Source: a virus
IMG/VR virus record: IMGVR_UViG_3300023170_000100
Coordinates: 1 to 33,519 of that record
DNA length: 33,519 bases
Strand: one strand, 5' to 3'
The translations under genes and the position numbers were made by a program. The notes beneath the pieces were generated by a model. The model had not been told where the DNA came from, did not search any database, and saw nothing but the letters and a program-made list of their open reading frames with translations. Of this stretch, positions 1 through 33,519 are shown piece after piece. Numbering within the stretch: the stretch's first letter is position 1; each line of letters opens with the position of its first letter.

Positions 1-795
1 CATTTGATCTGAGGGTTGTGAAATAGACTCACCTAAAACAGAAGAAATATCACCCACTTTGATGTGAGCAGGTTTAGTCGTTTTAAGGAGTTTTCTGAGG
101 TTGCTCTGCAAGTTGATAATCTGAGGAGGCAACCCAAAGTCTACTGTATGGGTGTGACCATTAGCTTCTTGAACAACCCCGTTTACAATGTCATGTTGGT
201 GTAGCTCATCACCCCAACGATAACCTACAGGGGCGAGTGTAGAACCGTACCCTGTCTTGGGGGCTAAGACTAAGTGCCGATGGTAGTCTGACCCACCTTG
301 ATTCGTATATCCAAGTAAAGACGTTGTTACGGAAATAAGATGATTACTGAGTTGTGTTATTTCTACCTCTGACCCACCTGCTGACTTAGTAAGTAAGTCC
401 AAGATCACAGAGCTTTCTGAGCCTTGTACGAGGGCTTTTGTCGTATCAAGAATAATCTGCTTTAACGTATAGTCATCTGATGTGATAGGGGTGTCCTCTT
501 GTTCAAAAACAAGAGAGGTAATTTTGGTTGCCAAAAACTCCGACCTCAGATCAGAAATAGAAGAATCACCTTCCAAATCTGTGAGGTCTATAATGATCTT
601 CGCAAAGATTTCAGCCACCCCGTCATAGATAATCCTATGGTTCGGGCCAAACTGATCGGTGTTGTAGTTAGACGCTGTACTATTAGCAAGAGTCTCGGAG
701 ATGTAGTTCGAGATGCCCCTCACTAAGTGTCTATTCAGATTAGATCGAGTTCCTAATACGTCCCTCGATTGTCTAGGGTCATAAGGTAAACTCAT
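1..795 (-). CDS. Tail or baseplate-associated protein, C-terminus cut by window edge
   Basis: The frame is open without a stop from an ATG at 795 to position 1, giving at least 265 residues beginning MSLPYDPRQSRDVLG. The ATG shares its A with the TAA stop of the baseplate J gene (TAATG), so translation is probably coupled. The visible part is mostly helical, then has a His-rich stretch around residues 185-225 (YHRHL, LHQHD, NGHTHTV). Such HxH clusters occur in phage tail and fibre proteins, where they can bind metal. Its place directly after gp25-like and J-like genes suggests a baseplate-periphery or fibre-attachment role. I do not recognise the family; the function is inferred from position only. 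Confidence 0.8.
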   Translation of the reverse strand, partial: MSLPYDPRQSRDVLGTRSNLNRHLVRGISNYISETLANSTASNYNTDQFGPNHRIIYDGVAEIFAKIIIDLTDLEGDSSISDLRSEFLATKITSLVFEQEDTPITSDDYTLKQIILDTTKALVQGSESSVILDLLTKSAGGSEVEITQLSNHLISVTTSLLGYTNQGGSDYHRHLVLAPKTGYGSTLAPVGYRWGDELHQHDIVNGVVQEANGHTHTVDFGLPPQIINLQSNLRKLLKTTKPAHIKVGDISSVLGESISQPSDQM

Positions 796-3700
796 TATGC
801 CTCCTCAAATGTGAAGCTCAACTCACCCACAGAGAACGCTGAGAAGTTATTTAAAGAAGCCTCAGAAATGACTTCATCTTTATCCTCCACTACATAGTCC
901 ACTTCAAAGTCGTAGAGTGAGGGGTCGTCACCTAAATCAAGACCGACAAGAATCTTACTAACACTATTATCTAACCCTGCTAAGCCTGCATTTCCTACAA
1001 TGCTTGCTGTATTTGTAGTCCAATTAGACGACACAACTCTCTGCACATCATCTAGTAAAGTAAGGCTCGTTTCTACGCTTGTAGACTTATTTCTCTTAAA
1101 AATACGAGCACCCATGCCCCCCAAGTTTTGAGGTGTGTTCAAGAGCCTTGTATCAATCACCCAAACCTTGACAGACGCATTAGATAAACTCGCAACTTCT
1201 CGGTAGCCTCCAAGAGCCACAGCTACCCTCTCTCTAAGAATGAAAGAACCTTCCTCAAAAGACATTCTCGTAAGGGGTAAGCTCACATGGCTGACACCCT
1301 CTGTTGAGTTTATTTCTCGGATTACTTCTGAGGGTCTAATCGAACCTCCGATAGTCTCTGATCTGATTAAGCTCGAAAGCCTAAACCTCAATAGGCTATT
1401 CACATCAGAAGCGTCATAACCCTCATCGAGAATGACTGTCGCTGTGATGCTCAAAGGCACACTTCTTATTTCTTTCACAACGACATCAGCACCTAAATTT
1501 CTTTGCTCATCAAGAAGCGTCTGTGCTGTCTGAACAACTAAGTTTGTTGTGTAGGTAATGACTACGTTTTCTAGGTATTCATAAGAAATGAGCAACGACC
1601 CCCCGTCAGGGATTAGGCTCGTGCTTGTACGCTTTATAGAAACCTGCCCTACACCATCATCTAGTATGTCGTAATCAGGACTAGAAGCGTAAGGGCTATT
1701 ATAGACTTTCCCTGTCGGACTCTTAACTACTAAGGAGAGTGGGTCTGCCCCTAGCTTATCAAGTCGTTCCTCATAAAAGCCGACTATTGTATGCGATTCC
1801 TCACTAATGGAAACGATCTTATTTCTATCCTCATTTGAGAGCGTGACTGAAACAGAATCTTTTGAAGAACCCCCTAAGAGTAGAGGGTCGTTATTGGTGT
1901 TTACGACATAGTTTTCTACATCAGCCCCGTCTTCCCAAACAACAGAAGAAACACTACGAACAGGCTGTCTTGAGAGGAACATTTCTGAAGAAGAATCACT
2001 TCTCCAATCCCCTAGTAGGATTTCAGTTATCGTATAGCTCGGCTGAACGAGAGAATCATCTAAAGCAATGGTGCGATAATCTTCTACTGAATACCCTGTT
2101 AGGTCAAAGTATTCCCCGTTAGATTTCCTAAGCCCATACTGCACTCTAACAGAGCCGTCAGAGTTATAGAAAGTCCTGTTTATCATTTCGTAGATAGGCT
2201 TATCTTCTGTCGCTTCAAGTGATCTAAACCGATAAGACCCTAAGCCACCTACAGGGACAAAACGAGAGCCAAAAGAAGACTGAAATGAAGGGGCGAAAAC
2301 ATCAGTCACTTGACTCAGACTTTCACCCTTCACCCATATGTCTACAGCACCCCCCAAGTTATTATCTCGCTTCATAAAGATACTTGAGGAATCAACAATG
2401 AATGAATCTGAAACTCCTGCAACTGAGCGACTCAGCCTTTCATAACCACCCCTCGTACCTCCGTCTATTGAGCTTAAAGCACCCAACGCCCTAGTGGTTA
2501 AACCTAAGTTCGTTTCTCGATCTTGACCTCCAAAAGTAGGAGAAGGATTTGTCACGGACAAACCTAATGGAGCACCTGTATTAATCTGACCCGTTGTGAT
2601 ATTTCCTGCCAAACCACCGTCAAGAGCAACTATAGGAGCTTTGACAGAATACTTCTTTGTCACAGGGTTGTAATACTGAGAGGCTGTTTCAAGTGGGATA
2701 CTGACATTTGCTGTCGTATTGAATACTTGCGAGCCACTTGAAACCTCAGTTCCCGAAGGAATGTTAAAACTGAACGTGGGAGGGGTTGATGTAGAAAACT
2801 CAACTTCACCCCTCGCTTGTGTAGACTCTTGTCTAACAACACCAAAGTTAGAAGCGAGCTTCTCAAAACTAGCGTCTATTAAGTCTTGGACTTGTTGTTC
2901 GTCTTGCAGAAATAACGCTGATTGTAAAGCTGTCTTGTACTGACTGTCTGCAACAGGTAAAGACCTGCCCTCATTCAAAGGGTCGTCTATCTGTAATAAC
3001 CCAAGAAAGCTAGAGCTACGATAAGCAAAGTCTAACAAGAACCTAGAACGCTCCATTTCTGAAACGATAGGGTCTATGATGATGTCTCGAATAACACTAC
3101 CTGCTTGTACGGCTACATCAGGCTGAGCTAAGTACATAGACGTAATCATGCTTCTAGTTAGATCATCTCGTGTGACCACAGGAATTGAAGTGTTTGAAGC
3201 TTGAATCTGAACAGGCTTACCCGACACCTCTGTAGAGTACGCAGACTCTACCTCAACCCCTTCAATCACCTTGGTTGCAGTCACGATATAATAGAGCGAA
3301 CTAGATGAAGGAAGACTCGCAAAAGTACCACTCAAGATTGTCGGTGGAAATGTATCTTCAGTACCATTTCTGAAGTGGCGAAAGGACACTTCTGTTCTAA
3401 GGTATATTTGGTGTATCTCAGAAGAAACTCTCATTCGTACCACAGATTCGGGTACTTCTATTTCCCCCACAGTAGTTGTGGAAACCTCTACTGTATTGTC
3501 TTTCTGAATAACACTCACTTCAGCAATCAAAGGGTCTACTTGTTCTGTCGGTATATCGTTGACTACCTCACCGACTTTCTCGACAACCTCTGACCTATTT
3601 CCGTACTTGGCAGGACTTAAAGGCTCAAGGTTAATCTGACTATAACCCTCAGCTCCACCACCCGAAATAGAACTCGCATAAATCGTGTAATAAACCACCT

Positions 3701-4103: not shown

Positions 4104-5146
4104 GCTAAATCTCCATCAAGTGGAATAGAGCCTGGGACTGCGAAAACTAAGTTTATTCTGACAGGTTGATAGGAATAGCTAACAACCGTCACTTCTACAA
4201 GATAAGAGGTTTCATCATCTCCTATTGTAGACACTTCTACATTTCTTACCTGCTTGACTCTTTCCTCTAAGCTCATTGTTTGTATTCTACTCTGTTGGTC
4301 TTGGACATTAATTAAGTCATCTAAAGCTCGCCTTACTGACTCTCTTAATGAATATACCACGCCTTGACTTACCTTTTGCCCTATCAAGCCCATAGCCGTA
4401 GAACCATAGAACTGATGAAATGGATTCGACCCTAATCTCGTTAATAAGACTTTAGCTACCTTCTGATAGAGCAAGTCATAACCCTCTATCATTTCTATCC
4501 CACCTTGCTCGTCAAAACGAAGGTCGTTTTCTACCCCTGTACCCGAACACCTACGACACAGGTCTTTCTCACAAGTATAAGAAATGTCAATCAAACCCTC
4601 TGTGGAAATAGATCGAGACAGCAGGACTTTATAGCCCCTAAAGTTCACCTGTTTTGTGAGTTTCCACGAAGGAAATAAAACCTTTTTGGAAGCTCTAAAA
4701 GAGTTCCCCTTAAACCCAAAGGTCTTGAGGACTGACCCACTCAGATTAAACTTACTTATCTGCTTGTCATCTGTGATCGCTACGCTCTTGTTTGACACTA
4801 CGGCTCTCAAAGGAAATGGAAGACTTGTGTTTAAAAAGTCCACTAAATCCTGTTGCCTATAAATCTTTGGCGGGATTGTTATTTCTCTTTCTGAAACCTC
4901 TGCTCCACCGACTACCAAGACATTTAACCCTGCCTTAACTCGATAAGGAGCTATGCTAGGAAATACTGCTTTGGTTTCAGAGCGTAATCCTTCTTTAGGT
5001 ATAGAAATCCCATCTACTCTGAGATCAAGCAAGCCCTCTCCTGAAATAGGAGAACGAGGGATAATCTCTCGACCTCCTATTATTTCTACCTGCTCATACC
5101 TTATGTAGTGTGGGCAAAGATGAGCTATTCGAGCGTCTATGCTCAT
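4100..5146 (-). CDS. gp25/GPW-like baseplate wedge protein with N-terminal extension
   Basis: The last third of this 348-aa protein (about residues 222-345) matches the gp25/GPW lysozyme-like baseplate family: LYQKVAKVLLTRLGSNPFHQFYGS followed by the helix SLRESVRRALDDLINVQDQQSR. In contractile tails this protein links the wedge to the sheath. Usual family members are 110-150 aa, so about 220 extra N-terminal residues are present. A cysteine knuckle (C192, C197, C200 in CEKDLCRRCSGTG) lies just before the gp25 domain and recalls half of a DnaJ-type zinc motif. The start codon is next to a 14-bp hairpin that covers the ribosome site. The stop overlaps the J gene start by 4 nt. Confidence 0.8.
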   Translation of the reverse strand: MSIDARIAHLCPHYIRYEQVEIIGGREIIPRSPISGEGLLDLRVDGISIPKEGLRSETKAVFPSIAPYRVKAGLNVLVVGGAEVSEREITIPPKIYRQQDLVDFLNTSLPFPLRAVVSNKSVAITDDKQISKFNLSGSVLKTFGFKGNSFRASKKVLFPSWKLTKQVNFRGYKVLLSRSISTEGLIDISYTCEKDLCRRCSGTGVENDLRFDEQGGIEMIEGYDLLYQKVAKVLLTRLGSNPFHQFYGSTAMGLIGQKVSQGVVYSLRESVRRALDDLINVQDQQSRIQTMSLEERVKQVRNVEVSTIGDDETSYLVEVTVVSYSYQPVRINLVFAVPGSIPLDGDLA

Positions 5147-5202: not shown

Positions 5203-8200
5203 TTACCTTTCTAACTCCACCAAAGAAGCAAACGCATTTCCACAGTCAGGGTCTAAGCCAAGAGACTCATAAAGTACATCTTCGCCTCCTTTAAGATAAG
5301 CACCACCCAAAAGAACAAGACCATTAAGGAACCCTTTGTAGTTGCTTGAAATCTCATCTCTTCTGTCTCCAATGTTACCTAATTGAATAGAGAAATTGGC
5401 TGAGATTTTCGGCTCTTGCTCCTCACCTCCACTAACCTCAACTGAAATAAGGTTTCTTCTTAAGTAAGACCTCGGAATCTGTGTGTCAAGTTGGTCTTCA
5501 AGAAGCCCTTTTATGTGATCTCTCAATTCCTCACCAAGACGTGTAACAGATTCTTCAGTCATTCCTGCTTGTCCTTTAAGAAGGTTACTAACCCCTTCAT
5601 TGTATCCGTTCTTTTCAAGAAATTCCCTTGCTTCTGTATAGAAGCCAACACTCTTATAAAGGTCAAAGACACCTGCTGATTGTTTGACGTAAATCTGACC
5701 ATTATCTACTTCGTAGTAGTTTCGGAGCGTCTGCTCTGCGACTTCAATAGAACAACAAACTGCAATGTATGCCACAAAGTCTGACACATAATTCGCTATT
5801 CTTCCTGAAGCAGAATCCTCAAAAGGGGAGTTAAAAGTCGGGGTATAAGAAGAACCTGAATTTGAGTCATAGAAGCGACCTATTTCCTTAAAGGACTTCA
5901 CAAATCCTTTGAGCAAAGACACCTGCACCTTATTCGTACTCACCCCTGAGAAACATTCAGGAGAGGTATCTAAAAAGTTAAGAAGGTCTGAGGGGTCAGC
6001 TTTTACGATTGCTGAGGTTACGCTCTTAGCGACACTTTTATCGCTTAGTAACTTAGCATTAGCTACAGAAGCTAACCCACGAGCGATATTTTGATTCTTA
6101 TAGGTTAGAGGGCTTGGTAATGAAGCTCCTGTCGAAGCTGTGTCGCCAAGTATTCTTGAGGTCAAGATGTTCTTTGCATCTTCAATTTTCTTTTGTGAAG
6201 CGATCTCTACGTCTAGGTCTGTTTGCTTCATTATTTCATCAACCTTGACAGAGTATCTCTGCTTCTTTTCTTTCTTCTCCATTCTTGCTCTATTTCTCGC
6301 AATCTTACCTGCCTCAGCAGTCCCACTAATGAGCTTGGCACTCTCCTCTTGTAGAGGGTGTAATCCTTGCTTTAACTGAGCAAGCTCTGTCTGTTCATCA
6401 GCAGTCAGATCAGTCTTATTCTTTTTACTTAGAGTATCAAGAAGTTTCTCGGCTTCCTCTTTCTTCGCCATACCCTTTTCTTCGGCTTCTAGCTTTGCTC
6501 TCAAAGCCTCTCTTTCAGGATACTCTGTAAGAATATCGAGTGCCATAGCGTCTCTGAATTTCTCGTAAGATTTCATCAGAGTTTTCTTGGCTTTGTCAGA
6601 AATCTCTAAAGCGTTGATACGAGCTTCAGGCAAGAGGAAATCTCCTTGAGAAAGTAAGGATTCTACCTCTGTCGTGAGTCTTTCTGAGACTTTTTCTGTC
6701 TGAGAAGAAGCGTTCTCAAGTAGCTCTGTTAGCTCTCGCTTTTCATCATTGGTTATTGAAATGTCTTCATCAAGGTATGTCCCTACATTTTGCACAACAA
6801 AAGTACTGAACCCAGCAGTCTCCAATTCCTTCAACTTCTTCTGTATCTCTGCTTCAGTTATCTCCCCACTCACGCTTTGAATGAACGTAGAAACTTCAGC
6901 TTTTGTCATTACTTCAGACTTTAAGTTTTGAGTCGCTTTCACCCAAGCGTCTTTAGCTTTTTGGATTGCTTTTTGAATCTTGTCTTCGGTCATAACAGGA
7001 CCACCTTTGTCCTTACCTAAGACATCTTCAATAATTTGGGCTTGATTTAATGCTGTAGAAGACAACTTAGCTGTCGCTGTCGCCCTTTGCCTCTTAATCT
7101 GAGAAGTGAACTTCTCTGTCCCACGTCTACTGCGAGGGGAAAGACTCTCAAGGGCAATTTCTCTGACGATACTTTGCTTCAGCGTTGCGAAGTCATCTGC
7201 ATACTCGCTATTCTCAGAAATGGCTTTGATGCCATTAGCATAAGTGGTAGAGAAATTGTCACTAAGCGTCTTATAAGCGTCATAAAATACGCCTGCTCGC
7301 TTAATCATTTCAGGACGATCAATATCATCTGGGTCTTGATTGCTGTAATCAACGACATCTTGAAAAGCCTTCTCAAATTTACTGAGGATGGAAATGTCGG
7401 AGACAATATCTTTAAGACTATTAAACTCTCCTCCTCTGTTAAAAGAAGGTTTACGATTGTATCGAGGTTGAAGATCCTCATATACAACTTTCGCAAACTC
7501 CTCTAACTGCTCATCGTTAGGACCTTTCTTACCTCCGAGCAAGTTGCCTGAGTCGCCTGAGTATATCTTAGAAATCGCTTCAACAGCAGAGAAAGAGAAG
7601 GATTGAACCCAAAGCCTGTAGGCTTCTAAGTCTTCCATATCACTCTTATAAGGCTCGGTTTTGAGCATCGCTGACTTCAGCTTGCTAAAGGTGCTTAACC
7701 TCTCATTAGTCAAGTTCCCTGCGTGTAAACTTGAAGCCCTAGTGCTAGTGTCTACCTCTTCATAGTTAAGAGAACTTAATGAGTTTAATGGGTGGCTTAC
7801 GATCTTCTTCGAGCTTAAAGCTTTTTTCATCTTCTTGCGAAGATGATCTATTTCGCCTAAGTTATGGTTCAGATCAATGGAATCAGAATTTACATCAGCA
7901 AGCACAAAATCATCAAATTGGGATTCGGCTACTCCGAAGCTTTTTGCTCTCTTTAATATCAAACCAAACAAGCCATTAACTTCAGAAATAGTCGCTTGCA
8001 GACCGATACCTATTTTGTCAGAAATCTGTATAGGCAAAGTCTCAAAACGAATTAATGCTTTTTCAGCAGGAGCTACGACTTTACTCCAAAAGTCGTCAGA
8101 AATAAGAGGGTACTGATCTGTGTCTACAAAGTAAGAATAACCATTCTCCTCGTCTAGTTCTGTCCCCCCAATATGTTTGTCAAATAAAGTAAACATAGGA

Positions 8201-9675: not shown

Positions 9676-10707
9676 ATGATGAATATACCACAAGAGAACA
9701 TCTCTTGTCCTAAGTCTATTTCTGCTTCTTACATAAAAAGCGTGTGGGGCAAAGAAGACTTAGAACTGCACACTCGATTTGAGTTAGCTGATCTGTACTC
9801 AACACCTAAGATTGACTTTACAGTTGAGTTGGCTGACCTGTACTCAACACCTAATCTCGATTTAACAGTTGAGTTGGCTGACCTTTATCCCTCTACACCT
9901 AAGATTGACTTAACAGTTGAGTTGGCTGATCTTTACCCTTCTACTCAGAAGACTTTTAAAGTAAAAGAGCGAAAGCGTCTGAACGAGACTTCTGCGTATC
10001 TCTACGCTACAGAGAACGATGAGACTCGCTATCTTGCGTGGCAAAAGAAAATGATTACCTACATTTTCGGGAAGCATAACCTCGCTTCCTCACATGAAGA
10101 AGCAAAAGACCTCGTAGGTGATTTCTTAACGTGGGCGATCAAAAAGAACAAGCTCGCTGAGAAGCTGAATGAAGGAAAGAAAATCTATTTCAATTGGGTT
10201 CAAGGCACGATGTTTTGGCAGTTCATCACTCAGACTCGACAGAAACAAGGGCAAGACTGTCATGCTCGCTTACGACATAAATATGCGAGAACAGAACAAG
10301 AGAAAAAGAAGCAGAAAGACTTTGTTTGGGTTGCCCCGAAAACTGCTAATGTGTTTAACACTTATGACGAGTCAACAAGGGCGATCACTAGCTCTGAGAT
10401 GTACTACGAAGAAGAATCACACGAGATTAAAATTCACAGAGAAATAGGTTGGTCTAAGCTCTATGAGCAGTTTGAGTTATGCGTGTCATCTAATGAAGAT
10501 GCGAAGCTGTGGACTTCAATCTTATCAGAGTATTTAGAGGGTTCGTTTGAGGGCGTTTCAGACACTAAGCGAGTACAAGATGAGGCTTGGGCTGAGTCTC
10601 ATAATATAAGTGTCGTAGAACTACGCTCAATTCGTAAAAGCATTTTCAAAGTGCTCAAGAGTAATAAGCAGATCATAAAGATCACTCAAGAGTACTTTGT
10701 CGATTAA
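9676..10707 (+). CDS. Probable sigma-factor-like protein with four-copy N-terminal repeat
   Basis: From the ATG at 9676 (AGGAG at 9664-9668) the protein has 343 residues. Residues about 36-95 are four copies of a 15-16 aa repeat with core ELADLY. Residues about 116-200 resemble sigma region 2: EEAKDLVGDFLTWAI, then FNWVQGTMFWQFITQTRQK, then a basic stretch. The last ~55 residues (EYLEGSFEGVSDTKRVQDEAW, then NISVVELRSIRKSIFKVLK) resemble a region 4 helix-turn-helix. It may direct RNA polymerase to phage promoters, as T4 gp55 does. It stands alone on the plus strand between two minus blocks. The first 32 residues of the longer TTG-initiated frame overlap a promoter and are unlikely to be used. 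The sigma call is moderate; a generic DNA-binding protein is the alternative. Confidence 0.7.
   Translation: MMNIPQENISCPKSISASYIKSVWGKEDLELHTRFELADLYSTPKIDFTVELADLYSTPNLDLTVELADLYPSTPKIDLTVELADLYPSTQKTFKVKERKRLNETSAYLYATENDETRYLAWQKKMITYIFGKHNLASSHEEAKDLVGDFLTWAIKKNKLAEKLNEGKKIYFNWVQGTMFWQFITQTRQKQGQDCHARLRHKYARTEQEKKKQKDFVWVAPKTANVFNTYDESTRAITSSEMYYEEESHEIKIHREIGWSKLYEQFELCVSSNEDAKLWTSILSEYLEGSFEGVSDTKRVQDEAWAESHNISVVELRSIRKSIFKVLKSNKQIIKITQEYFVD
9781..9960 (+). repeat. Four tandem copies of a 45-48 bp repeat encoding ELADLY units
   Basis: Units begin with GAGTTRGCTGA at 9781, 9826, 9871 and 9919, so the period is 45, 45 and 48 bp. The encoded units read ELADLYSTPKIDFTV, ELADLYSTPNLDLTV, ELADLYPSTPKIDLTV and ELADLYPSTQKTFKV. 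The repeat is in frame inside the sigma-like gene and is conserved at DNA level, which suggests recent duplication. Confidence 0.95.
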
Positions 10708-11810
10708 GCTAAGGCGAGCTGATCTTGTTCACGAGGGCTGAACGCTCTTGACTCTGAAAGCCAACTTGATAAGTTAGGAAATGCACTTTTCAAGATACTT
10801 GCGTTTTCGAGCAGATACTCTTTGAGTTCTGCGATGATAGCCTTGCCAACTTTCACAGCACCCGTAAAGACCTGCTTCAGAATCGCAAAGATGGACTTAA
10901 TAGGAACTAGAAATAGAGAAGTGAACGGATTTTTTAGACCCCATTCACGCTCGGCTCGACCAACATGAAGGAACTCAGAAAGAGCAATAGTCGCAAAGAG
11001 GATAAGCCAAATAGGTGTAGTATATAAGTGAAGACCTACAGCGACAAACTCTAGGAAAGCACCCCCTGCACCCGACATCATCCAACCGACCAAAGTGGAA
11101 ATGTTAGCTGCCGCAAAGCTGTAAATGCCCGACAAAATTGTCCATCTGTTCACTAAGAGTAGTGTCCACCAACCCCATTTCAAAGGCTTCCCTACTAAAG
11201 AGCCTTTAGGGAGTAGCTTCACAATCCACTCGATTGCATTTCCTCCTGTGAGAAAACTAACCACTTTGAGAGTCTTAGCAGACAGGTTGAGTAACTTCTC
11301 AGTTCCTTGGTCAATCTTTCTGACTCGGTGCTCGCCCCAATCATATTCATCGGCAGTCTTATTTCTTGTGTACCAAAGCAAAACGAGTGCGATCACTTCC
11401 TCGTCTACCTTGAGGACTTTCGCCATTTCCCCTACATCTTGCTTCTTATATGCAAGGCTCAGCTCACCGACTAGATTAGCCACTTCAACGGGGTCTTTCA
11501 TTCCGTTGGTACGCTCGTAAATGAGCCTTTGAATAGGGTCTTTAAGATTAGGCTTAGCCCCTTTCTTTGCAAGTTCAAGTATGTCGTTAAAGCTATTTAA
11601 ACCTGCCTCTTTAGCCGCCCATGCTAGACCCACTTTAGAAGCACTCGACTGACCCTTAAGCTCTTTCTGAACTCTTTGGTCAGCTTCCTTCATAAACAAC
11701 GCTGTGAGTTTTTCCTGTATGCCACTAAGGAAATGAGCTTGCTTTTCCATACGAGCCATTTTCTTAGAAGCTACTCGGATAACCATTTCTTGTCTTGCTT
11801 GCTTGTTCAT
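10704..11810 (-). CDS. Tagged membrane-segment protein, paralogue of the 16309-17379 product
   Basis: The 368-aa protein has three parts. Residues 11-27 carry the tag peptide IRVASKKMARMEKQAHF. Residues about 30-150 form a soluble helical domain ending VIALVLLWYTRN. From about 215 to 310 there are several hydrophobic helices (GWWTLLLVNRW, then the stretch WLILFATIALSEFL). The N-terminal 150 residues align with the 16309-17379 product: tag, GLNS, PIQ, KQDVGEMA, VALVLLWY.RN. The protein is probably a virion-internal or membrane-acting protein, but no family is recognised. GGAGG precedes the ATG, and its stop shares TTAA with the convergent sigma-like gene. Confidence 0.8.
   Translation of the reverse strand: MNKQARQEMVIRVASKKMARMEKQAHFLSGIQEKLTALFMKEADQRVQKELKGQSSASKVGLAWAAKEAGLNSFNDILELAKKGAKPNLKDPIQRLIYERTNGMKDPVEVANLVGELSLAYKKQDVGEMAKVLKVDEEVIALVLLWYTRNKTADEYDWGEHRVRKIDQGTEKLLNLSAKTLKVVSFLTGGNAIEWIVKLLPKGSLVGKPLKWGWWTLLLVNRWTILSGIYSFAAANISTLVGWMMSGAGGAFLEFVAVGLHLYTTPIWLILFATIALSEFLHVGRAEREWGLKNPFTSLFLVPIKSIFAILKQVFTGAVKVGKAIIAELKEYLLENASILKSAFPNLSSWLSESRAFSPREQDQLALA
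11730..11777 (-). other. RVA tag peptide, N-terminal copy (RVASKKMARMEKQAHF)
   Basis: Residues 12-27 of the 368-aa protein. It aligns position by position with the tag of the 356-aa paralogue (RVAxxx[ML]ARMxKxAxF). It is basic and predicted to be an amphipathic helix. Related copies occur at 12261-12305, 14628-14666, 15648-15689, 17308-17355 and 27209-27250. Confidence 0.6.
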
Positions 11811-15855: not shown

Positions 15856-15892
15856 CTCCCCCTGTCGAACAAGAAATAGATAGGAGTCTGAC

Positions 15893-20841: not shown

Positions 20842-22346
20842 GAATATTAAGATCAATAATCCCCGAACCTCGTATCGGTGATGATGAAAAAGCCATGCTT
20901 CAAAACTATACGGCTTTGCGAGAATCAATCCTTAACTTTGATATGCCTGTAGATCGTGTGATCTATGACTATATCAAAGAGTTTGTGTCTCAGCACTCTC
21001 ACTTACCCACTCAAGAAACAGCGATTAACTTCCTAGACAGCAACAATCAATATGATGAAGCTGATCGTATTCGTTCACTCTCTACGATTGAGCCTGCCTA
21101 TCGTGGTGACTTCATCTTCTTAATTGAAAAGCAAGTAGAAGAAGCCCGTATCATGTCTCTCAGTGAGACTATGGCACAGGTCAAAGAAATCACTAGAAAT
21201 GGCATTGAGATTAAAGAGGGGAAAACTAAGAGAACGCTCAAGGGTGCTCGTGATGCAGGGCGATTTATCTTTCAGCAACTACATGATTTAATGACCCCTA
21301 CATTTGGCACTCGTATTGGGGGCGAAGCTCTTGGAGATGGTGAGGAATTTTGGGAGGAATATCAAAAGATTAAGGATACAAAAGTGGAAGTTTTACCAAA
21401 GACAGGACTGCAAGTCATTGATGACGCTATCGGTGGCTTTAAGAGAAAAGAACTCTACATTATGGCAGGCTTTACAGGACACATGAAGTCTAAGTCGGCT
21501 GTAAATTGGGTGTATAACCAAGCGATTTTTGGTGGGACAAGTACCATCTATTTCTCGTTAGAAATGCACTATTCTCAATGTCGCAGAACCATCTACGCAT
21601 TTCATAGTATGCACCCTAAGTTTCGGCAGAAGCGTATCGCTTTAGGTATTCAAGCTCAGCCCAATCCTGATGTTGGTCTTGACCCGATCAAAATCAGAGA
21701 TGGTAAGCTCACTCAAGACGAGGAGCTATTTCTGAAAGAGGTGATTGATGATCTCAAGACCAATATGCAGAATGGTACTTACGGCTCTATTTTCTTTGAG
21801 GTAGCTGACCCCGATAGCCTTGACTTTACTGTTGAGGACATGAGGACTAAAGCAGAGACTATCGCCTCTAAACACCCTGTGAAATTAGTAGTAGTTGACC
21901 ACGCACTCTTAATGTCTAGTAGACGTTGGGTAGCGTCTACTACTGAGCGTTTGAATGAAGTTATCCGAGACTTGAAAAAGACAGCTATGGGCTTCAATAG
22001 AGGGCAAGGCGTTCCTATCCTATGTCTATTTCAGATTAACCGTGAGGGCTTCAAAGCGGCTGAGAAGAATGACGGTACATATAACCTCACTCACCTCTCG
22101 TATGCCAACGAAGCAGAGCGTTCAGCAGACGTTGTAATCGCTTCTTGGTATGACGATAATATGAGGCAGAAAGGCATGATTAAGTATCAATGCTTGAAGT
22201 CTCGTGACCAAGCTCCTTTTGAGGCTTTTGAAGCACAGACAGCTTGGCCGGTGGGTCGTATTCTGAACACCCCAATGAACTTCAAGATGGGTGCTTCGCC
22301 CAATGCTAAACCAAAGAAGGAAGACCCTCTTGATGATGTAGTTTAA
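20838..22346 (+). CDS. DnaB-like replicative helicase
   Basis: This 502-aa RecA-fold helicase has an N-terminal helical domain (about 1-150) and a C-terminal motor. The motor has TGLQVIDDAIGGFKRKELYIMAG, Walker A GFTGHMKS (211-218), the catalytic Glu in FSLEM (E242), Walker B LVVVDHALL (D354), the Gln sensor LFQINREG (Q399) and KSRD near 454-457 as arginine-finger region. The P-loop has M in place of the usual G before K. It would unwind the phage replication fork as a hexamer, loaded by the product of the overlapping upstream gene. Confidence 0.9.
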   Translation: MRILRSIIPEPRIGDDEKAMLQNYTALRESILNFDMPVDRVIYDYIKEFVSQHSHLPTQETAINFLDSNNQYDEADRIRSLSTIEPAYRGDFIFLIEKQVEEARIMSLSETMAQVKEITRNGIEIKEGKTKRTLKGARDAGRFIFQQLHDLMTPTFGTRIGGEALGDGEEFWEEYQKIKDTKVEVLPKTGLQVIDDAIGGFKRKELYIMAGFTGHMKSKSAVNWVYNQAIFGGTSTIYFSLEMHYSQCRRTIYAFHSMHPKFRQKRIALGIQAQPNPDVGLDPIKIRDGKLTQDEELFLKEVIDDLKTNMQNGTYGSIFFEVADPDSLDFTVEDMRTKAETIASKHPVKLVVVDHALLMSSRRWVASTTERLNEVIRDLKKTAMGFNRGQGVPILCLFQINREGFKAAEKNDGTYNLTHLSYANEAERSADVVIASWYDDNMRQKGMIKYQCLKSRDQAPFEAFEAQTAWPVGRILNTPMNFKMGASPNAKPKKEDPLDDVV

Positions 22347-22408: not shown

Positions 22409-23869
22409 ATGAGACATTTACAGGCAGGTGGGGAAATAGACTTTCTTCGAGAATCACAAAGTGATGCAGTAAAAGCTAGTGCTGTCGTTTTAAGACAGAT
22501 GATCTCGACAGTAGGGAACTTGGGCGAGTTGCTTAACAAAAAGAAGATCGCTGAGTTGGTCTTACTGAACCCTGCATACAAAGACTTTGTTAGCTCACAT
22601 TTCGAGTTTGCTGATAAAGACATTCAAAAGAGCCTAGTAAGTGCTTTTGTTGAGTACTTTCATGGAAAGAAAGCAGGGGAAGAAAAACCTGTTTTTAATA
22701 AGATATGGAAGCTCGTAGAAGAGTACGTCAAGGGCAGAATGATGGACGAGGGGCAAGAGAACTATCTTAACACTATCCCCGAAGAGTTAAGGAAGTTCCT
22801 ACCTAAAACTCTAGCCGTTGATGTAGATTCCACAGGCGAAATACAATATATCACCGACTTGTTCGTCAACGAAGTAGACGATGTAAACTATAAGATTAAG
22901 AAGATGACCACACTCCTTAAAAGATATAACCATATCGTAGATGTGGTAAAGAGCGACCTGATGTCTAATGATGTCTTTTTAAGAGTCAAAGCCTTGATTG
23001 TGGCGATCATCATGGAAACAGGAATCCGACCTGCTATGGGTGAAGGTATTTCTAAGATGAAAGGTATGGACGGGAAATACCTAAAAGATGAGGAGGGTGA
23101 ATATATTGAAATGGAAACCTTTGGTGCTAGAACTCTGAAATTGAGCTTCATTAAGGACTTGATCGGTAAAGATGGCGATCAGATTGAAGTGAGGTTTAGA
23201 GGGAAAGCGTACACCGAAAATGTAGCTTATCTAAGTGACCCCCAAGTCCTGGCAGAATTGAGAAATCTTGCGACTGAAGCTGAAATAACCAGAAATGAGC
23301 TAGGGATAGACCCATTTCTGTTTACAAGACCTGATGGAGATGTAATTACAGGAGATCAGTTAAACAGGTACTTTAAGAAGATCGTCAAAGACACTAACCT
23401 AACCCTTACTGATTTCCGTAAGCTCAAGGCAACACAAGAAGTCTTTAACCACCTAAAGAACAAAAAAGTTGATCTGCTTTATAAGATTAGAGAGTTCGCT
23501 AATGAGCAGGCTGAAAGTCTCAAAGAGAGAGCGACACAGGAAATAACAGATACTGTCAACCAAGCGATTAGAAATGCACAAGAAGCAATCAGTCATGGTG
23601 AGTTTGATACTACTGTGTCTTACTACATCAACCCTACTGTAGTCTTAAAGTTTCTCTCAGAGGGTAAGGTAGGAGAAAAGTTGGAAGACGCTGTAATGAC
23701 AAACCCCAAACACCTTACTTTCAACCTAGACGCATTTCTTGACGAAGCTGTTATGATTGGACCTATCCAAAAGAGAGGCACTAATCTTCAGAATCTCGTA
23801 GACGACCTAGAAATGAAACTAGGTGAAAATCTACTTAGCTTAGTAGAGCATATCCAAGAAACCACATAA
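22409..23869 (+). CDS. Topoisomerase IB-like protein, copy 1
   Basis: The 486-aa protein matches the type IB topoisomerase catalytic domain in order: R207 in METGIRP, FGARTLKLSFIKDL (238-251), K266 in VRFRGK, R337 in TDFRKLKAT, H396 and Tyr405/406 in HGEFDTTVSYYINP. His and Tyr are 9 residues apart as in poxvirus and bacterial enzymes. It would nick and reseal one strand to relax supercoils. The first ~190 residues are a helical N-terminal domain, and the C-terminal ~70 are unassigned. It is paralogous to the 28630-30186 product. DFRxxxAT and YYINP favour topoisomerase over tyrosine recombinase. The ribosome site GAGGG is only 3 nt from ATG. Confidence 0.75.
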   Translation: MRHLQAGGEIDFLRESQSDAVKASAVVLRQMISTVGNLGELLNKKKIAELVLLNPAYKDFVSSHFEFADKDIQKSLVSAFVEYFHGKKAGEEKPVFNKIWKLVEEYVKGRMMDEGQENYLNTIPEELRKFLPKTLAVDVDSTGEIQYITDLFVNEVDDVNYKIKKMTTLLKRYNHIVDVVKSDLMSNDVFLRVKALIVAIIMETGIRPAMGEGISKMKGMDGKYLKDEEGEYIEMETFGARTLKLSFIKDLIGKDGDQIEVRFRGKAYTENVAYLSDPQVLAELRNLATEAEITRNELGIDPFLFTRPDGDVITGDQLNRYFKKIVKDTNLTLTDFRKLKATQEVFNHLKNKKVDLLYKIREFANEQAESLKERATQEITDTVNQAIRNAQEAISHGEFDTTVSYYINPTVVLKFLSEGKVGEKLEDAVMTNPKHLTFNLDAFLDEAVMIGPIQKRGTNLQNLVDDLEMKLGENLLSLVEHIQETT

Positions 23870-25462: not shown

Positions 25463-25775
25463 AAACGATAACGAAATAGATATTACAGAACTCTTTGAGT
25501 ATTCTATAAAGCTCTTAGCTGAACAGGCAGAGACACCTCAAGAATTGATTAGTGTTTGGATTAACTTAGGGAAAAGACTTGGTGTAGAGGACATTTTTTC
25601 TAGCCTTAAAATAGTCCTCTATGAAGACGACAACCAAGAGCAACACATGGTAGGGTTTGTCGGTTCTCCGAGCGAAGAAGTGACCGAAATCCTAAGCTCA
25701 GAAATAGTCTTTAACGAGTACATTTGTGACAAAGCTGTAGAAGCAATTAATGAGAAAAAAGTAGTGTACCACTAA
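25449..25775 (+). CDS. Unknown small acidic protein (108 aa)
   Basis: The ATG at 25449 has AAAGG at 25437-25441; ATG 25452 is an equal alternative. The product is acidic, with one helical region (ELFEYSIKLLAEQAETPQELISVW) and no known motif. It overlaps the CHC2 gene by 14 nt, and its TAA shares an A with the next ATG. It is a real member of the operon by packing, without an assigned role. Confidence 0.7.
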   Translation: MMSGKNDNEIDITELFEYSIKLLAEQAETPQELISVWINLGKRLGVEDIFSSLKIVLYEDDNQEQHMVGFVGSPSEEVTEILSSEIVFNEYICDKAVEAINEKKVVYH

Positions 25776-26207: not shown

Positions 26208-26852
26208 ATGAAGTACGTCAACCCTCCAACTAATCGTAGGATTTACCCTACACCCACTAATAATATGCCTGTTAGAAATGGAAGCGACAAAGACTATCAT
26301 GGCGAGCTTTCTATTTCTGATAATCATATCTATCTTTACCAAGACATCACTCCAAAAGCGATCATGGAATTGGGTATTGCGATTAGGCATATAGGGCAAC
26401 ATATCTTTAACATGGTTACAGAGTTAGACTTACCCTCAGCACCTGCTATCCATTTACACATCAACTCAAATGGTGGGTGTGCTTTTAGTGGGCTTGCAGG
26501 GGCAAGTCATATCCTTAACTCTCAAATCCCTGTCATCACTTATATTGAAGGAGGGGCGGCATCTGCGGCGACTATCCTATCATGTGCAGGGGCAAAGCGT
26601 TTTATCACCGAACACAGCTTTATGCTTATCCACCAAATCAGTACAGGTGTTTGGGGGACATACGAGAATCTGAATGATGAGAAAGAGTCTATGGACTCAC
26701 TCATGGAAATGATTCAGTCAATCTACCTCAAGCATACAAACATGAAGAAGAAGCAACTGAAGCAACTCTTAAAGAGAGACTTATGGCTGAACCCTGAGAA
26801 ATGCCTAGAGCTAGGCTTAGTAGATGAGATTATTCACTACGAGAGAAACTAG
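26208..26852 (+). CDS. ClpP-like serine protease
   Basis: From the ATG at 26208 (GAGAAGG at 26193-26199) the protein has 214 aa. The ClpP fold is clear: IHLHINSNGG, then TYIEGGAASAATILSCAG with nucleophile S119, FMLIHQ with H142, and KRDLWLNPEKCLELGLVDEI with D191, so the triad is complete. Phage ClpP-like enzymes often act as capsid maturation proteases, but those genes usually lie beside portal and capsid genes. This one is the last gene of the replication operon, so it could process non-capsid proteins. The stop shares CTAG with the convergent gene's stop. Confidence 0.85.
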   Translation: MKYVNPPTNRRIYPTPTNNMPVRNGSDKDYHGELSISDNHIYLYQDITPKAIMELGIAIRHIGQHIFNMVTELDLPSAPAIHLHINSNGGCAFSGLAGASHILNSQIPVITYIEGGAASAATILSCAGAKRFITEHSFMLIHQISTGVWGTYENLNDEKESMDSLMEMIQSIYLKHTNMKKKQLKQLLKRDLWLNPEKCLELGLVDEIIHYERN

Positions 26853-27974: not shown

Positions 27975-28565
27975 TTAAGACTTCTTGGCTTTCTCTTGAG
28001 CTTTCTTCCTGTCCTCAGCTCTATACTTTTGCTCTAAGATAGGAAGTGCCTTTTCTGCTTGGTCGAGTTTGTGAGCTAAGTCTCTCGCTTCTCTACTAAG
28101 ATTCATATTTCCTAGCAAAGTGATCTCGCCTGTTGTGGTGTCTTGTAAGCGAGAAGTCAAACCAACCGTATTAGGCATCAACTGCTTGATGATCTTCGGG
28201 TCTATGTTTTTAAGAGCTATGTCCCACACCATTTCTAGCTCTAATCCTTGCATGATAAGCATAGGCTGACCTCCATAACCTAAGTTCATCTTTTGACGAA
28301 ATAGACTCATGCCCGAACGGGTACGAAGCTCCATATCAAAGAAATGAACAGGCATAGGGTTTTCAGGTCGATCAAAGAACATCTTGAACCCAAAGTGCAG
28401 ATTCTTATCCCCAAACACGAGGGTAGGGTTATCCACATAACCCCATTCGTGAATGATAATGTAAAACTCATTCTTCTCTGCAAGCCGAGAAATAAACTCT
28501 TGCTCAATCTCGGACATAGGTATGTAAAGACTGTTCTTATTTTTACCACCAAATACGTTAGACAT
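27975..28565 (-). CDS. Unknown 196-aa protein with basic coiled tail
   Basis: The N-terminal 130 residues are mixed alpha/beta (EFYIIIHEWGYVDNPTLVFGDKNLHFGFKMFF). The last 50 form a charged helix ending KKAQEKAKKS that may bind nucleic acid. No family is recognised. Its ribosome site (GAGGAG) lies within a 6-bp hairpin upstream. A 112-nt gap follows before the 27862 gene, in which I see nothing certain. Confidence 0.75.
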   Translation of the reverse strand: MSNVFGGKNKNSLYIPMSEIEQEFISRLAEKNEFYIIIHEWGYVDNPTLVFGDKNLHFGFKMFFDRPENPMPVHFFDMELRTRSGMSLFRQKMNLGYGGQPMLIMQGLELEMVWDIALKNIDPKIIKQLMPNTVGLTSRLQDTTTGEITLLGNMNLSREARDLAHKLDQAEKALPILEQKYRAEDRKKAQEKAKKS

Positions 28566-28629: not shown

Positions 28630-30186
28630 TTATCCTCTTTTACTTCTTAAGGCTCTTATGCCCATGATAGAACCTGTCACCTCGCCCATTTCACTATCCA
28701 TGTCCTCTAAGAGCGAACTAAGGTCATAACTACCTGTCACCTCGCCCATTTCACTGTCCATAGCTTGAAGAAGCTGTGAAAGATCAGTAGCTCTCTTGAG
28801 AGGATAAGAATCAGTCCCAAATAGGTTCGCAACATCAATGAACTTCTGTATGTCAAAAGATACTGTGTCATAACCTTGTGCGACAGCCTTGCTTATATTT
28901 CTTTCAATGTAGCCTTGATGAAGGAAATTCAAAACAAAGTTAGGGGCGATATAGTAGTCAATCGCACTACCCATTTCTGAGTGGTGCAGGGAATCGGAGA
29001 CAGCCTTAATCGCATCATTAATAAACTGAGTCACTCTAGTAGCCACTGCTTCTTGGAGATTCTGAGTACCTGCGTCTACAAGGGCTTTCACATCTTCGTG
29101 TAGTTGCTCTTGATCTCCCTCCATAACCTCAAACAATCTCCTATTAGCGAAAAGCATACGGAAATCGTGAGGCTTCATATCGAACTGCCCAAACTTACGA
29201 TCTATATACTTAATGAGCTTCGTGTAGTCGTATCTCCAACCATTCAAACCTCTAAAAACAGGAGGCTCTTTAGACGGAGTTCCCAAGTCCATTCCTGCAT
29301 CTAAAGTTGCTTTATCCACATAAGGCTTGAGAGCTGTAGCAATATCAGAATCAGTCATCTCATAAAGAAGAGTGTTACCGTATTTCCCAACTAACTCTAT
29401 TTCAAAACGGCTCGCTTGCAAGCTCTTGACATGAGAAGGTCGAAGCTCGGTTAAGCCGAAAGTTTTTACTTCTACTTTAGTGCCGTCTGCAAGTTTCTTA
29501 ATCGTTTTGCCAGGTCTACCACCACCAACACGAACTCCTGTCTCTAACATAATAGCTGTAAGGATAGCGTTAAGGGTGTCCCTCTCGTTATTCGATGACA
29601 TGAGGTCTGCTTTCACAGACGTTAACATAGAGTTATATTTCCCAATAGTCTGAACGAGTATGTTGTGCTTATGCGTAAGGCTTCTGATCTGATTTCCTAC
29701 ACGCTCACGAACACCTGTCACCTTACCTGCTTTATCCACATCTAAAACAAGATTGCGAGGTAAGAATTTCCTGATGTCTACCTCTAGGGCATCTCTCAAA
29801 CTTTGTTGCTCTGTACCCAAGAACTTGTACTCGAAACCTAGCTCAGCAGACAACGTAACTTGGTCTTGTATTTCAGGGTCGGAAATGGAAGCCCCTTCAA
29901 CCACAATCTTAGCTAAGGCTCTAAGGAGTTTAGCTCTGTTCTGTGCGATGCTTCTAACATTACGAGGATTACCATGACCCTCTATTTCTTTGCCTGCATA
30001 CTTGTCGAGAAAAGACTGTATATTTCTCATACCTTGAGCGTCAGAAATAAAGTCTTTAACTGAATCAAAAACTAACCCTTTTTTAGCTACATTTCTAGCA
30101 ATCGTAGAGATTGCTCTCTCCGTAGCTTTAACGTGCTTGATCTGTTCTTTTCTGTCCCGAACATTTAAGTCATCATAAGAAGGCAT
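28630..30186 (-). CDS. Topoisomerase IB-like protein, copy 2
   Basis: The 518-aa protein has the same motif series as the 22409-23869 product: R219 in LETGVRV, FGLTELRPSHVKSL (243-256), K268 in IELVGK, R343 in HDFRMLFAN, H402 and Tyr411/412 in SAIDYYIAP, again with 9 residues from His to the first Tyr. The two also share LP..L.LDVD..G and K.DLMS. The canonical T of DFRxxxAT is N here. The C-terminus has two copies of MDSEMGEVTGS. It lies in a minus-strand operon with structural-looking genes, unlike copy 1, which lies with replication genes. AAAGGA precedes the start. Confidence 0.75.
   Translation of the reverse strand: MPSYDDLNVRDRKEQIKHVKATERAISTIARNVAKKGLVFDSVKDFISDAQGMRNIQSFLDKYAGKEIEGHGNPRNVRSIAQNRAKLLRALAKIVVEGASISDPEIQDQVTLSAELGFEYKFLGTEQQSLRDALEVDIRKFLPRNLVLDVDKAGKVTGVRERVGNQIRSLTHKHNILVQTIGKYNSMLTSVKADLMSSNNERDTLNAILTAIMLETGVRVGGGRPGKTIKKLADGTKVEVKTFGLTELRPSHVKSLQASRFEIELVGKYGNTLLYEMTDSDIATALKPYVDKATLDAGMDLGTPSKEPPVFRGLNGWRYDYTKLIKYIDRKFGQFDMKPHDFRMLFANRRLFEVMEGDQEQLHEDVKALVDAGTQNLQEAVATRVTQFINDAIKAVSDSLHHSEMGSAIDYYIAPNFVLNFLHQGYIERNISKAVAQGYDTVSFDIQKFIDVANLFGTDSYPLKRATDLSQLLQAMDSEMGEVTGSYDLSSLLEDMDSEMGEVTGSIMGIRALRSKRG
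28669..28761 (-). repeat. Two 33-bp copies (period 60 bp) encoding MDSEMGEVTGS
   Basis: Residues 476-486 (28761-28729) and 496-506 (28701-28669) are identical. The surrounding LLQAMDSE and LLEDMDSE show that the duplicated unit is about 20 residues. Confidence 0.9.
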
Positions 30187-30200
30187 ATCTATTTCCTTTC

Positions 30201-31052: not shown

Positions 31053-33519
31053 TTGTTTGACGATTTCCTAGCAGACCTCAGAAAGCCCTCAATCGAAAAG
31101 TACGATTGGATGAACGATGTTGAGTTGATACTTGGCACTAAAGAAAACCTCACCCAAGCGATTGATGAGTGTATCGCTTCAGAAATATATGGCTGTGACA
31201 TTGAAACTACGGGGCTTGATAACCGAGTTTTTGACGGCAGAACAGTTGACTCTATCGTGGGTATCGGACTCGCACCCACACCCGACAAGGCTTACTATTT
31301 CCCAATCGGACACAGAGCAGGCTCAGAATATAACATTCCTTGGTCTATGGTCGGCAAAGAGTTTGGGAGGCTATTTCACCCTGACACTAAGGCTAATCCT
31401 GTCTTCCACAACATCGCATTTGACTCCGTATTTCTTGAGTATAACGGCTTCTTCCCTCTTGGGGTAGATCGGTGGGACGATCATAAGAAATGGGAAGACA
31501 CCCTCATTGTTAAGTACCTGCTTAACCCTCGCCAAAAAGGTGGGCGAGGACTGAAGGCTCTATCAGATCAACTCTGTGGTATGAAGATGATCGAACTCAA
31601 CGAGCTAATCCCCGATGAGAAGATTAAGGATTACGCCACCCTCGACCCAAGTTGGGAGCCTTGTGTATGGTACGCTGCGGCTGACCCTCTCTGTACGCTT
31701 CGTGTATGGAACATTCTAAGAGGTCAATATGTAGACGCACCCGAACACTCAGATTCAATCTACAACTTAGAAAAAATGTGCCTCGTTTCAGTAAGTTGGA
31801 TGCACAGAAGCAGAGTGTATGTAGACAGAAATAGAGCCTTAGAGTCTTGTAAAGAAGGGCAACGCCTATGGTGGGAAAGTTTGCTTGAAGTATATGACGG
31901 AGCAAGTGAAATCTTAGGTCGAGATATAACCCCTAACTACCTTCGGATAATGAAAGGTGAGATCAAAGGTGCGATCAACATCTTTGAACCCGATGACGTA
32001 GGAAATGACTCTAAGATGTCCTATAAGATTAGAGTTGATGAAGCTCGCAAGGAAGCGAAAAGAAACTACCCCGACCCTGTTCAAGTCATCTCAAAAAACG
32101 TGGCTCTCGTGGGCAAGGAAGCAGGGACTGAGAAAATCGATTTCCCTATCGTCTATGACATTATGTCTCCTCAGCAACTTGGACTCTTATTTCGTGAGTT
32201 AAAAGTACCTAACCTCATCGCCTCTGAGAAATCGGGTCAAGTAGTCACAGCAGGCGATGTGCTTGATGATGTGATCGAAAAAGCTGAGAAAGACTTCCCA
32301 TTCATGGGGAAAGTTAAGAACTTACGTTTCCTCTCTAAAGCTCTCGGTCAATACCTTATCCCCTTTGTCGAAGATGTGGGTAAAGACGGAACTCTGAAAC
32401 CTCGCTTCGATCAGTTTGCGGCTGATACAGGTCGTTTCTCTTGCAAGTCCACCTCTAAGCCTTGGGAAGTCAAAGACGGGGGCTGTAGAGTACCATTTCA
32501 AGGTATTCCTGCTTATGGGAAAGACAAGGACAAGAAGCCTGCTATCATTTCTTATATGCGTGATTGTATCGCTTCAAGAGGTGATGGGTGGTGGCTAGTC
32601 GCAATCGACTATGCAGGTGTTGAGCTTCGCTTAGTCACCAACCTCAGCAAAGAACCTCTATGGGTTAAAGCGTTCTTCGAGTGTTCAGATTGTGGGAAAC
32701 AATACCCACAGGAAATGAATGATGATAATATCCCTAAAGCAACCCCCACTTATTGCGTTTGTGGCTCTGACCGAATAGGCGATCTTCACACCGTCACAGC
32801 AGTTGCTTTCTATGGCGAGAACGCTAAGAATTTGCCCGATTGGAAAGACAAGCGAGGAAATGGCAAAGGGTGTAACTTTGCTCTCTCTTATGGTGGGACA
32901 GGTAAAGCCGTACAGCGTACTATCGGTTGCTCGGCTCAAGAGGGTGAGGAGAAATACAGGAAGTTCACAGGCACTTATAAGACTCTTGCGAAGTGGTGGA
33001 CTCACCAACATGACTTTGGTCGTAAGCATGGCTATGTAAAGACAGCTTTTGGTCGTGTTCAGCCCCTACCTGACATTAATGAGGGTGACTTCAGAAAGAA
33101 ATCAAAAGACGAGCGTAAAGCTGTGAATGGCCCTGTGCAGGGTACGAGTGCAGACATCACCAAGCTCGCTATGAGTCTGATCTATAAAGAGGTCAAGAAG
33201 CGTGGTTGGTTCGATAAGCTCAAGATGATTCTGACTGTCCATGACGAAATCGTTTTTGAGATACATGAAGACGTAATCGGTGAAGCTATCCCTGTACTCA
33301 CCAATCTCATGTCGAGAAATAAAGGTATCGCTAATCAAGGTTGGGCTGTACCTCTACTTGTAGACGTAGAGATCGGTAAGACTTGGGGTGTCCCTTATGA
33401 CCTCAAAGACCTCAAGCGTGGCTATAAAGAAAAGCTCGTGCCTGATGGCGTAGACGAGGAAGGCAAGAAGAAATACAAGGAAATACAAGTACCTGTACCT
33501 GAGTCTTTAGGTCGTATCT
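31053..33519 (+). CDS. Family A DNA polymerase with 3'-5' exonuclease (right end cut by window)
   Basis: At least 822 residues from a TTG start with a strong ribosome site. Exonuclease: Exo I D49-x-E51 (CDIETTGLD), Exo II N120-D124 (NIAFDSVFLE), Exo III Y207-D211 (YAAADPLCTL). Polymerase: motif A AIDYAGVELR (D519), motif B with R601, K605, F609 and Y613 (RGNGKGCNFALSYGG), motif C VHDE (730-732). All catalytic residues are present. Between motif A and the GDLHT helix lies a CxxC...CxC segment (C544, C547, C568, C570) that looks like a zinc ribbon, unusual for this family. It should be the replicative polymerase, working with the DnaB-like helicase. No stop before the window edge. Confidence 0.95.
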   Translation, partial: MFDDFLADLRKPSIEKYDWMNDVELILGTKENLTQAIDECIASEIYGCDIETTGLDNRVFDGRTVDSIVGIGLAPTPDKAYYFPIGHRAGSEYNIPWSMVGKEFGRLFHPDTKANPVFHNIAFDSVFLEYNGFFPLGVDRWDDHKKWEDTLIVKYLLNPRQKGGRGLKALSDQLCGMKMIELNELIPDEKIKDYATLDPSWEPCVWYAAADPLCTLRVWNILRGQYVDAPEHSDSIYNLEKMCLVSVSWMHRSRVYVDRNRALESCKEGQRLWWESLLEVYDGASEILGRDITPNYLRIMKGEIKGAINIFEPDDVGNDSKMSYKIRVDEARKEAKRNYPDPVQVISKNVALVGKEAGTEKIDFPIVYDIMSPQQLGLLFRELKVPNLIASEKSGQVVTAGDVLDDVIEKAEKDFPFMGKVKNLRFLSKALGQYLIPFVEDVGKDGTLKPRFDQFAADTGRFSCKSTSKPWEVKDGGCRVPFQGIPAYGKDKDKKPAIISYMRDCIASRGDGWWLVAIDYAGVELRLVTNLSKEPLWVKAFFECSDCGKQYPQEMNDDNIPKATPTYCVCGSDRIGDLHTVTAVAFYGENAKNLPDWKDKRGNGKGCNFALSYGGTGKAVQRTIGCSAQEGEEKYRKFTGTYKTLAKWWTHQHDFGRKHGYVKTAFGRVQPLPDINEGDFRKKSKDERKAVNGPVQGTSADITKLAMSLIYKEVKKRGWFDKLKMILTVHDEIVFEIHEDVIGEAIPVLTNLMSRNKGIANQGWAVPLLVDVEIGKTWGVPYDLKDLKRGYKEKLVPDGVDEEGKKKYKEIQVPVPESLGRI

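Follow-up and report, generated by a model that had tools for sequence, protein, structure and literature searches.

DNA uptake sequences (DUS in Neisseria, USS in Haemophilus) are words of 9–12 bp that are found in bacteria and are maintained by biased transformation, and the poxvirus type IB topoisomerase (TopIB) acts on the short target (C/T)CCTT. Phages without recombinases over-represent Chi, with a median observed/expected ratio of 3.12, and the density of Chi in Escherichia coli is 0.2 per kb (PMC3784561). Additionally, viral genomes, those of phages as well as those of giant viruses, encode many solitary enzymes of the N6-methyladenine (m6A) or N4-methylcytosine (m4C) type (PMC10711547, PMC7253447). 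Here we describe an eight-base word, GAAATAGA/TCTATTTC, in the IMG/VR virus record IMGVR_UViG_3300023170_000100, a stretch of 33,519 bases that was analysed whole and is called the window below. The window is a piece of an uncultured jumbo-phage family, and this short non-palindromic word is held at the DNA level, with an identity that changes by lineage.

A recount agrees with the original prediction on 29 copies of GAAATAGA/TCTATTTC in the window, 15 on the plus and 14 on the minus strand, and on 42 copies of GAAATAG. The copies are located as follows:

20..27, plus strand, GAAATAGA copy
554..561, plus strand, GAAATAGA copy
3457..3464, minus strand, GAAATAGA copy
3664..3671, plus strand, GAAATAGA copy
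4605..4612, plus strand, GAAATAGA copy
6289..6296, minus strand, GAAATAGA copy
7847..7854, minus strand, GAAATAGA copy
9715..9722, minus strand, GAAATAGA copy
10184..10191, minus strand, GAAATAGA copy
10910..10917, plus strand, GAAATAGA copy
11835..11842, minus strand, GAAATAGA copy
12606..12613, plus strand, GAAATAGA copy
12711..12718, minus strand, GAAATAGA copy
15873..15880, plus strand, GAAATAGA copy, intergenic
16111..16118, minus strand, GAAATAGA copy
16678..16685, plus strand, GAAATAGA copy
17234..17241, plus strand, GAAATAGA copy
18779..18786, plus strand, GAAATAGA copy
19610..19617, plus strand, GAAATAGA copy
21547..21554, minus strand, GAAATAGA copy
22025..22032, minus strand, GAAATAGA copy
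22433..22440, plus strand, GAAATAGA copy
25473..25480, plus strand, GAAATAGA copy
26310..26317, minus strand, GAAATAGA copy
28298..28305, plus strand, GAAATAGA copy
29396..29403, minus strand, GAAATAGA copy
29981..29988, minus strand, GAAATAGA copy
30188..30195, minus strand, GAAATAGA copy, intergenic
31828..31835, plus strand, GAAATAGA copy

The excess stands, although the expectations of 2 and 6 copies that had been estimated by hand were somewhat low, a third-order Markov model giving 3.65 for GAAATAGA and 10.1 for GAAATAG; by z-score (13.3), GAAATAGA is the top repeated 8-mer in the window. Coding copies number 27 of the 29 and are spread over five of the six possible phases, the sixth being the one that would place TAG in frame. 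With the full gene list, the reading frames come out exactly as first given (8 in sense 0 and 4 in sense 1; 7, 4 and 4 in antisense 0, 1 and 2), as do the two non-coding copies at 15873 and 30188. Codon or amino-acid bias had been discounted as a cause, and synonymous-codon shuffles bear this out with 3.06 ± 1.65 copies (maximum of 9 in 2000 shuffles) against the 27 observed, so that neither the Markov model nor the shuffles yield about 30 copies. Other strongly raised repeated 8-mers do exist, but most of them contain GAAAT and do not refute the claim. The enrichment is not confined to the window either. Window positions 848–33519 match positions 71020–38349 on the minus strand of a 71-kb contig, G001 (IMGVR_UViG_3300023173_000013), at 99.9% identity, and GAAATAGA occurs 45 times in the 71 kb of G001, 32 times in the 46 kb of G002 and 37 times in the 61 kb of G003, compared with 4, 2 and 9 copies, respectively, of the word written backwards; the enrichment extends to other contigs of the same phage and to a 78%-identical relative. 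The observation is real and had been understated.

The enrichment is of a graded unit, RGAAATR(GA), and GAAATAGA is the best member of this word family. RGAAATR is found at 153 sites in the window (79 plus, 74 minus), that is 4.6 per kb with a largest gap of 925 bp, and its 147 sites in coding sequence compare with 34.7 ± 5.2 under synonymous-codon shuffling; since this consensus was picked after seeing the data, the original claim is tested more cleanly by the figure for the 8-mer GAAATAGA. With G001 and G003 pooled, the ratio to expectation is 8.1 for RGAAATAGA, 4.2 for YGAAATAGA, 3.8 for RGAAATR, 0.9 for RGAAATY and 0.5 for YGAAATY. In single-base neighbour tables for G001, the base after GAAAT is A or G and the base before it preferentially A or G, most other neighbours being no higher than about 1.3. 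A longer consensus around the sites was rejected, the flanks being near random except for the 5′ purine preference and the 3′ GA. The spacing of RGAAATR in the window is slightly more even than Poisson (coefficient of variation 0.83); a spacing constraint was rejected because this slight evenness occurs only in the window clade, the other word-bearing phages being near Poisson. A promoter or RNA-level role was likewise rejected on strand balance, since sense and antisense copies are both several-fold above their own expectations. The word is non-palindromic and enriched across frames, as a Chi-type word would be. The claim of selection at the DNA level is supported: it is as double-stranded DNA that the word is under selection or, at the least, kept, and codon or amino-acid usage does not account for it.

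More distant relatives were found through their DnaB and SNF2 proteins, on contigs of up to 376 kb; no cultured relative was found, the best match being one uncultured, moderately related phage of 485 kb. RGAAATA is the top word in G012, G017 and G004, and AGAAATC in G021 and G011, being weaker in G020 and the second word in G015. The top word is GAAAB in G007/G008, YGGATA in G015 and G018, an RGCGC-like word in G013, and CACCTR, at 2.6-fold, in G016. Every word-bearing relative tested is enriched on both strands, in nearly all frames and in non-coding DNA too, and RGAAATR, RGAAATA, AGAAATC and YGGATA are sharply defined and IUPAC-like, with R/Y positions and with single-base neighbours that mostly lie near or below 1. 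A score S, defined for the best word in 50 kb with enrichment required in both orientations, was 6–18 in most word-bearing records, 5.3–6.1 in G016 and 4.4 in G020, and 2.9–6.0 in T4, phiKZ, SPO1, lambda, E. coli, the Tunturi_5 phage and LR745208. In G014 (296 kb), which is nested within the AGAAATC/YGGATA clade, no word was found by this score (S 4.1–4.5), and GAAAT reaches only 0.31 of its expectation, the opposite of the window. The word differs even between phages whose helicase proteins are 84–85% identical.

From one relative to another, word sites are kept at roughly twice the rate of permuted words. G011 and G021 are 85% identical over 191 kb, and AGAAATC is identical at 154 of 191 sites against 43% for permuted words, which places it first among 302 common 7-mers; between G001 and G003, GAAATAGA is kept at 10 of 14 sites against 30%. 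Per-base conservation goes up within the word and down at its edges. This fits purifying selection on the word; an unusually low local mutation rate would look alike, and context-dependent mutation or repair might make the words unusually immutable with no selection acting on them. The lower loss rate between G011 and G021 (19% of sites lost, 57% for permuted words) fits the enrichment under such a process, and so does a word density that is similar in intergenic and coding DNA. We nevertheless consider it quite improbable: the neighbour tables for RGAAATR, RGAAATA, AGAAATC and YGGATA show no reciprocally depleted donor word, unrelated words (YGGATA, RGCGC) arise among close relatives, and we know of no mutational context that would single out one exact 7-mer, AGAAATC for instance, while leaving its neighbours flat. 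Because enrichment, lineage-specific words and site conservation occur here without the same in the control phages and E. coli, the word is held at the DNA level, and its genome-wide switching among relatives suggests a protein that reads it along the whole genome.

The same phages avoid restriction sites. In the window, CCAG/CTGG occurs 15 times where 157 are expected and GGCC 5 times where 47 are expected, and GCGC and CGCG are essentially absent from the window and its relatives. GCGC has 0 copies in ten contigs (in G014, 0 against 551 expected), is enriched in G013 and G008, and is neutral in the close relative G003 (73 against 75) and in G004, while G001 has none; ACGT has 0 copies in six contigs, and AATT stands at 0.09–0.5 of expectation in most of the phage family. 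Avoidance this heavy implies that the phage DNA is probably ordinary and restrictable. Lineage-specific protection would fit the avoidance of GCGC-containing words and GAAAT in some lineages alongside their enrichment in others. The extremity of the CCAG, GCGC and AATT deficits might also suggest that the enriched words are a by-product, the removal of CCAG, AATT, GGCC, GCGC and many palindromes shifting codons into the words that remain. Such compensation would, however, appear as broad mild gains, whereas here one exact word is raised 3–10-fold with neighbours near 1; since avoidance is the same in G014, where there is no word, this origin is very unlikely.

Sixteen gene families passed a screen for presence in the large word-bearing contigs G008, G021 and G015 and absence from G014. 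One of them consists of multi-copy proteins of about 400 amino acids (aa) with the motifs DFSxGWGDRL and FTSPPYF and S-adenosylmethionine (SAM) motifs. Pfam N6_N4_Mtase lies above cut-off in two of four members tested, the family matches PHROG DNA methyltransferases, and an AlphaFold2 model of one member (pLDDT, the predicted local distance difference test, 88.9) has SAM-dependent methyltransferases as its top matches, with no close DNA methyltransferase; it is predicted to be an amino-methyltransferase family. Copies number seven in G021, four each in G008, G017 and G020, three each in G001, G011, G013 and G015, two in G012 and one each in G016 and the partial contigs G003 and G018, with none in G014, G019 or the partial G004. 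The three copies of the window phage, on the minus strand of G001 at 31874–33049, 34252–35460 and 36358–37551, span 31874–37551 and lie 0.8–6.5 kb beyond the right end of the window, beside replication genes. In several relatives the array separates the GIY-YIG gene from DnaB; in G014 the junction is intact, the two genes lying side by side without it. The contigs carry several methyltransferases besides this family, and G014 lacks the family yet has several others. The N-terminal ~180 residues diverge far more than the C-terminal part in both orthologues and paralogues, with identities of, for example, 0.61 vs 0.88 and 0.33 vs 0.66, a pattern as expected for a target-recognition domain (TRD). 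In the enzyme tree, one clade has a member from every sampled array-bearing RGAAATR, RGAAATA and GAAAB phage and none from AGAAATC, YGGATA, RGCGC or CACCTR phages, and another clade unites just the two YGGATA phages.

Our preferred explanation, held tentatively and at less than an even chance, is that RGAAATR(GA) is recognised by a sequence-specific protein or enzyme acting on DNA, most likely a tandem amino-methyltransferase of this ~400-aa family. The original prediction had listed several kinds of reader, and of these a modification enzyme is the best supported, by a correlation with the multi-copy methyltransferases beside the window. The protein would act at RGAAATR(GA) throughout the phage genome, with selection on the phage to carry numerous such sites. 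The methyltransferase set of each lineage, its N-terminal domain diversifying, would write marks, presumably m6A or m4C, on a lineage-specific word, and dense marking might benefit the phage, for example as self-marking or as nuclease armour where restriction is strong. A further step, which we regard as doubtful, would be a self-identity code in which the genome is kept rich in the current word of its own diversifying methyltransferase arrays and is re-coded upon a change of specificity.

Several results weigh against a methyltransferase reader. Other phages carry distant homologues of the enzyme at around 50 loci where no word is seen (S 2–4.4), so the enzyme alone is not sufficient. Word sharing and N-terminal similarity have a partial correlation of 0.14 once core-protein similarity is removed, a value that does not establish co-variation of word and methyltransferase independent of phage relatedness, and enzymes could not be assigned to words one to one. 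The presence pattern of the methyltransferases is almost matched by that of a 108-aa membrane-protein family, G019 lacks the methyltransferase family yet has weak words of its own, and AGAAATC in G020 reaches only 2.3–2.6-fold despite four methyltransferase copies. Additionally, a methylation site need not be enriched, and all contigs are possibly incomplete. On account of the wordless homologues, phage relatedness, the 108-aa family and G019, the assignment of the words to the ~400-aa methyltransferases stays somewhat below an even chance.

The reader could instead be another phage DNA-binding protein that acts genome-wide (a nucleoid or packaging protein, TopIB, primase or a partition-like factor), its specificity drifting between lineages. 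The graded context effects (8.1-, 3.8- and 4.2-fold) resemble binding affinity, and both strands carry sites, at 3–6 per kb in most word phages but about 1 per kb for AGAAATC, with slightly even spacing in the window clade; among the gene products of the window itself are a primase zinc-domain protein and two proteins that resemble type IB topoisomerases. No specific candidate, however, co-varies with the words better than the methyltransferases, and we rate such a protein as rather unlikely. TopIB was rejected as the reader, being present in the wordless G014 and not found in the CACCTR-bearing G016, and so was the primase zinc-domain protein, whose gene is present in the wordless G014 and also in G019.

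The word might also belong to the host, the phage enriching the target of a host RecBCD/AddAB or uptake machinery, with words differing as hosts differ. Chi too is a short asymmetric word that is over-represented by phages without recombinases (PMC3784561). A RecA-like recombinase is nonetheless encoded by six of the seven largest relatives (G008, G011, G014, G015, G019 and G021; the window phage's own contigs are partial), and word density is 1–5.7 per kb against the far lower value of E. coli Chi. The word changes, moreover, between phages with such similar helicases and is lost in G014, which makes a host-derived word improbable. The host could not be named from enzyme matches in bacterial genomes, which were too scattered and too distant.

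Besides the ~400-aa methyltransferases, the relatives carry an array in which a DPPY-type DNA methyltransferase appears to be split into motif-IV open reading frames (ORFs; ~190 aa), variable TRD-like ORFs (~105–217 aa, starting with MIITLLRKPLEGSVAEN) and one SAM-binding ORF (DPFLGSGTTG), possibly forming a combinatorial multi-subunit enzyme:

G015 95213–100637, split DPPY-type array
G008 245937–248217, split DPPY-type array
G011 140696–144584, split DPPY-type array
G021 20354–24519, split DPPY-type array
G014 222219–226252, split DPPY-type array

Thymidylate-synthase-like, PP-loop-like and pyridoxal-phosphate (PLP)-enzyme-like genes, named by eye, also lie beside methyltransferases at G008 104537–106957 and in G011, G015 and G021, and are perhaps a nucleotide-modification cassette.

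In the window, 30 genes were called, covering 97% of its length. Their products include baseplate proteins, an SNF2 helicase, a DnaB-like helicase and a head maturation protease, as well as the primase zinc-domain protein, the two type IB topoisomerase-like proteins, a Nudix protein and a GIY-YIG protein. The topoisomerase-like genes are paralogous (22409–23869, plus strand; 28630–30186, minus strand), relatives usually having one, and the product of the former lies above the Pfam Topoisom_I cut-off (25.5 vs 23.7 bits). Two ORFs hold the outermost copies of the word:

1–804, minus strand, terminal ORF, holds the GAAATAGA copy 20..27
30948–33518, plus strand, DNA-polymerase-like ORF, open at the right end, holds the GAAATAGA copy 31828..31835

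The latter looks like a family-A DNA polymerase when judged by eye. A short basic motif, (M)AIRVASLKVAQMEKEA or RVARMHLARM, is common to several otherwise unrelated proteins of the window (ORFs 10704–11810, 11814–12911, 14625–15791, 16309–17379 and 26849–27862) and may be a signal for virion targeting or for processing by the head protease. A repeated unit, VELADLYPSTPKIDLT, is located directly upstream of and at the start of ORF 9580–10707.

The phenomenon is broader than first described, with several relatives each bearing a lineage-specific genome-wide word, for which a methyltransferase reader is plausible. A short word that switches between relatives can shape whole phage genomes in every frame, at a density far above that of Chi, and the question of how a large restriction-site-avoiding virus distinguishes or protects itself becomes testable. 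The word could also help, by sequence alone, to assign contigs to the same phage or to pair a phage with a reader gene. Among known systems, DUS and USS are likewise dense, genome-wide and present in both orientations, whereas the words described here are of 6–8 bp and occur in phages. Phage restriction-site avoidance is likewise a lineage-specific selection on k-mers at the DNA level, and is very strong in this phage family, but its sign is opposite, and the enriched words are asymmetric, not palindromic. The poxvirus TopIB is a viral enzyme with a short asymmetric target and the window has two TopIB-like genes, although their presence in this family does not track the words. With respect to orphan methyltransferases, the giant-virus motifs were all palindromic (PMC10711547, PMC7253447), unlike the words here, and a literature search found no report of a virus over-representing the word of its own methyltransferase. 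Chi in lambdoid, T5-like and P1-like phages, read by RecBCD (PMC3784561), resembles the present case as a short asymmetric word selected genome-wide in any frame; compared with it, the words of this family are about 5–25 times denser, are lineage-specific within one phage family and are carried mostly by phages with a RecA of their own.

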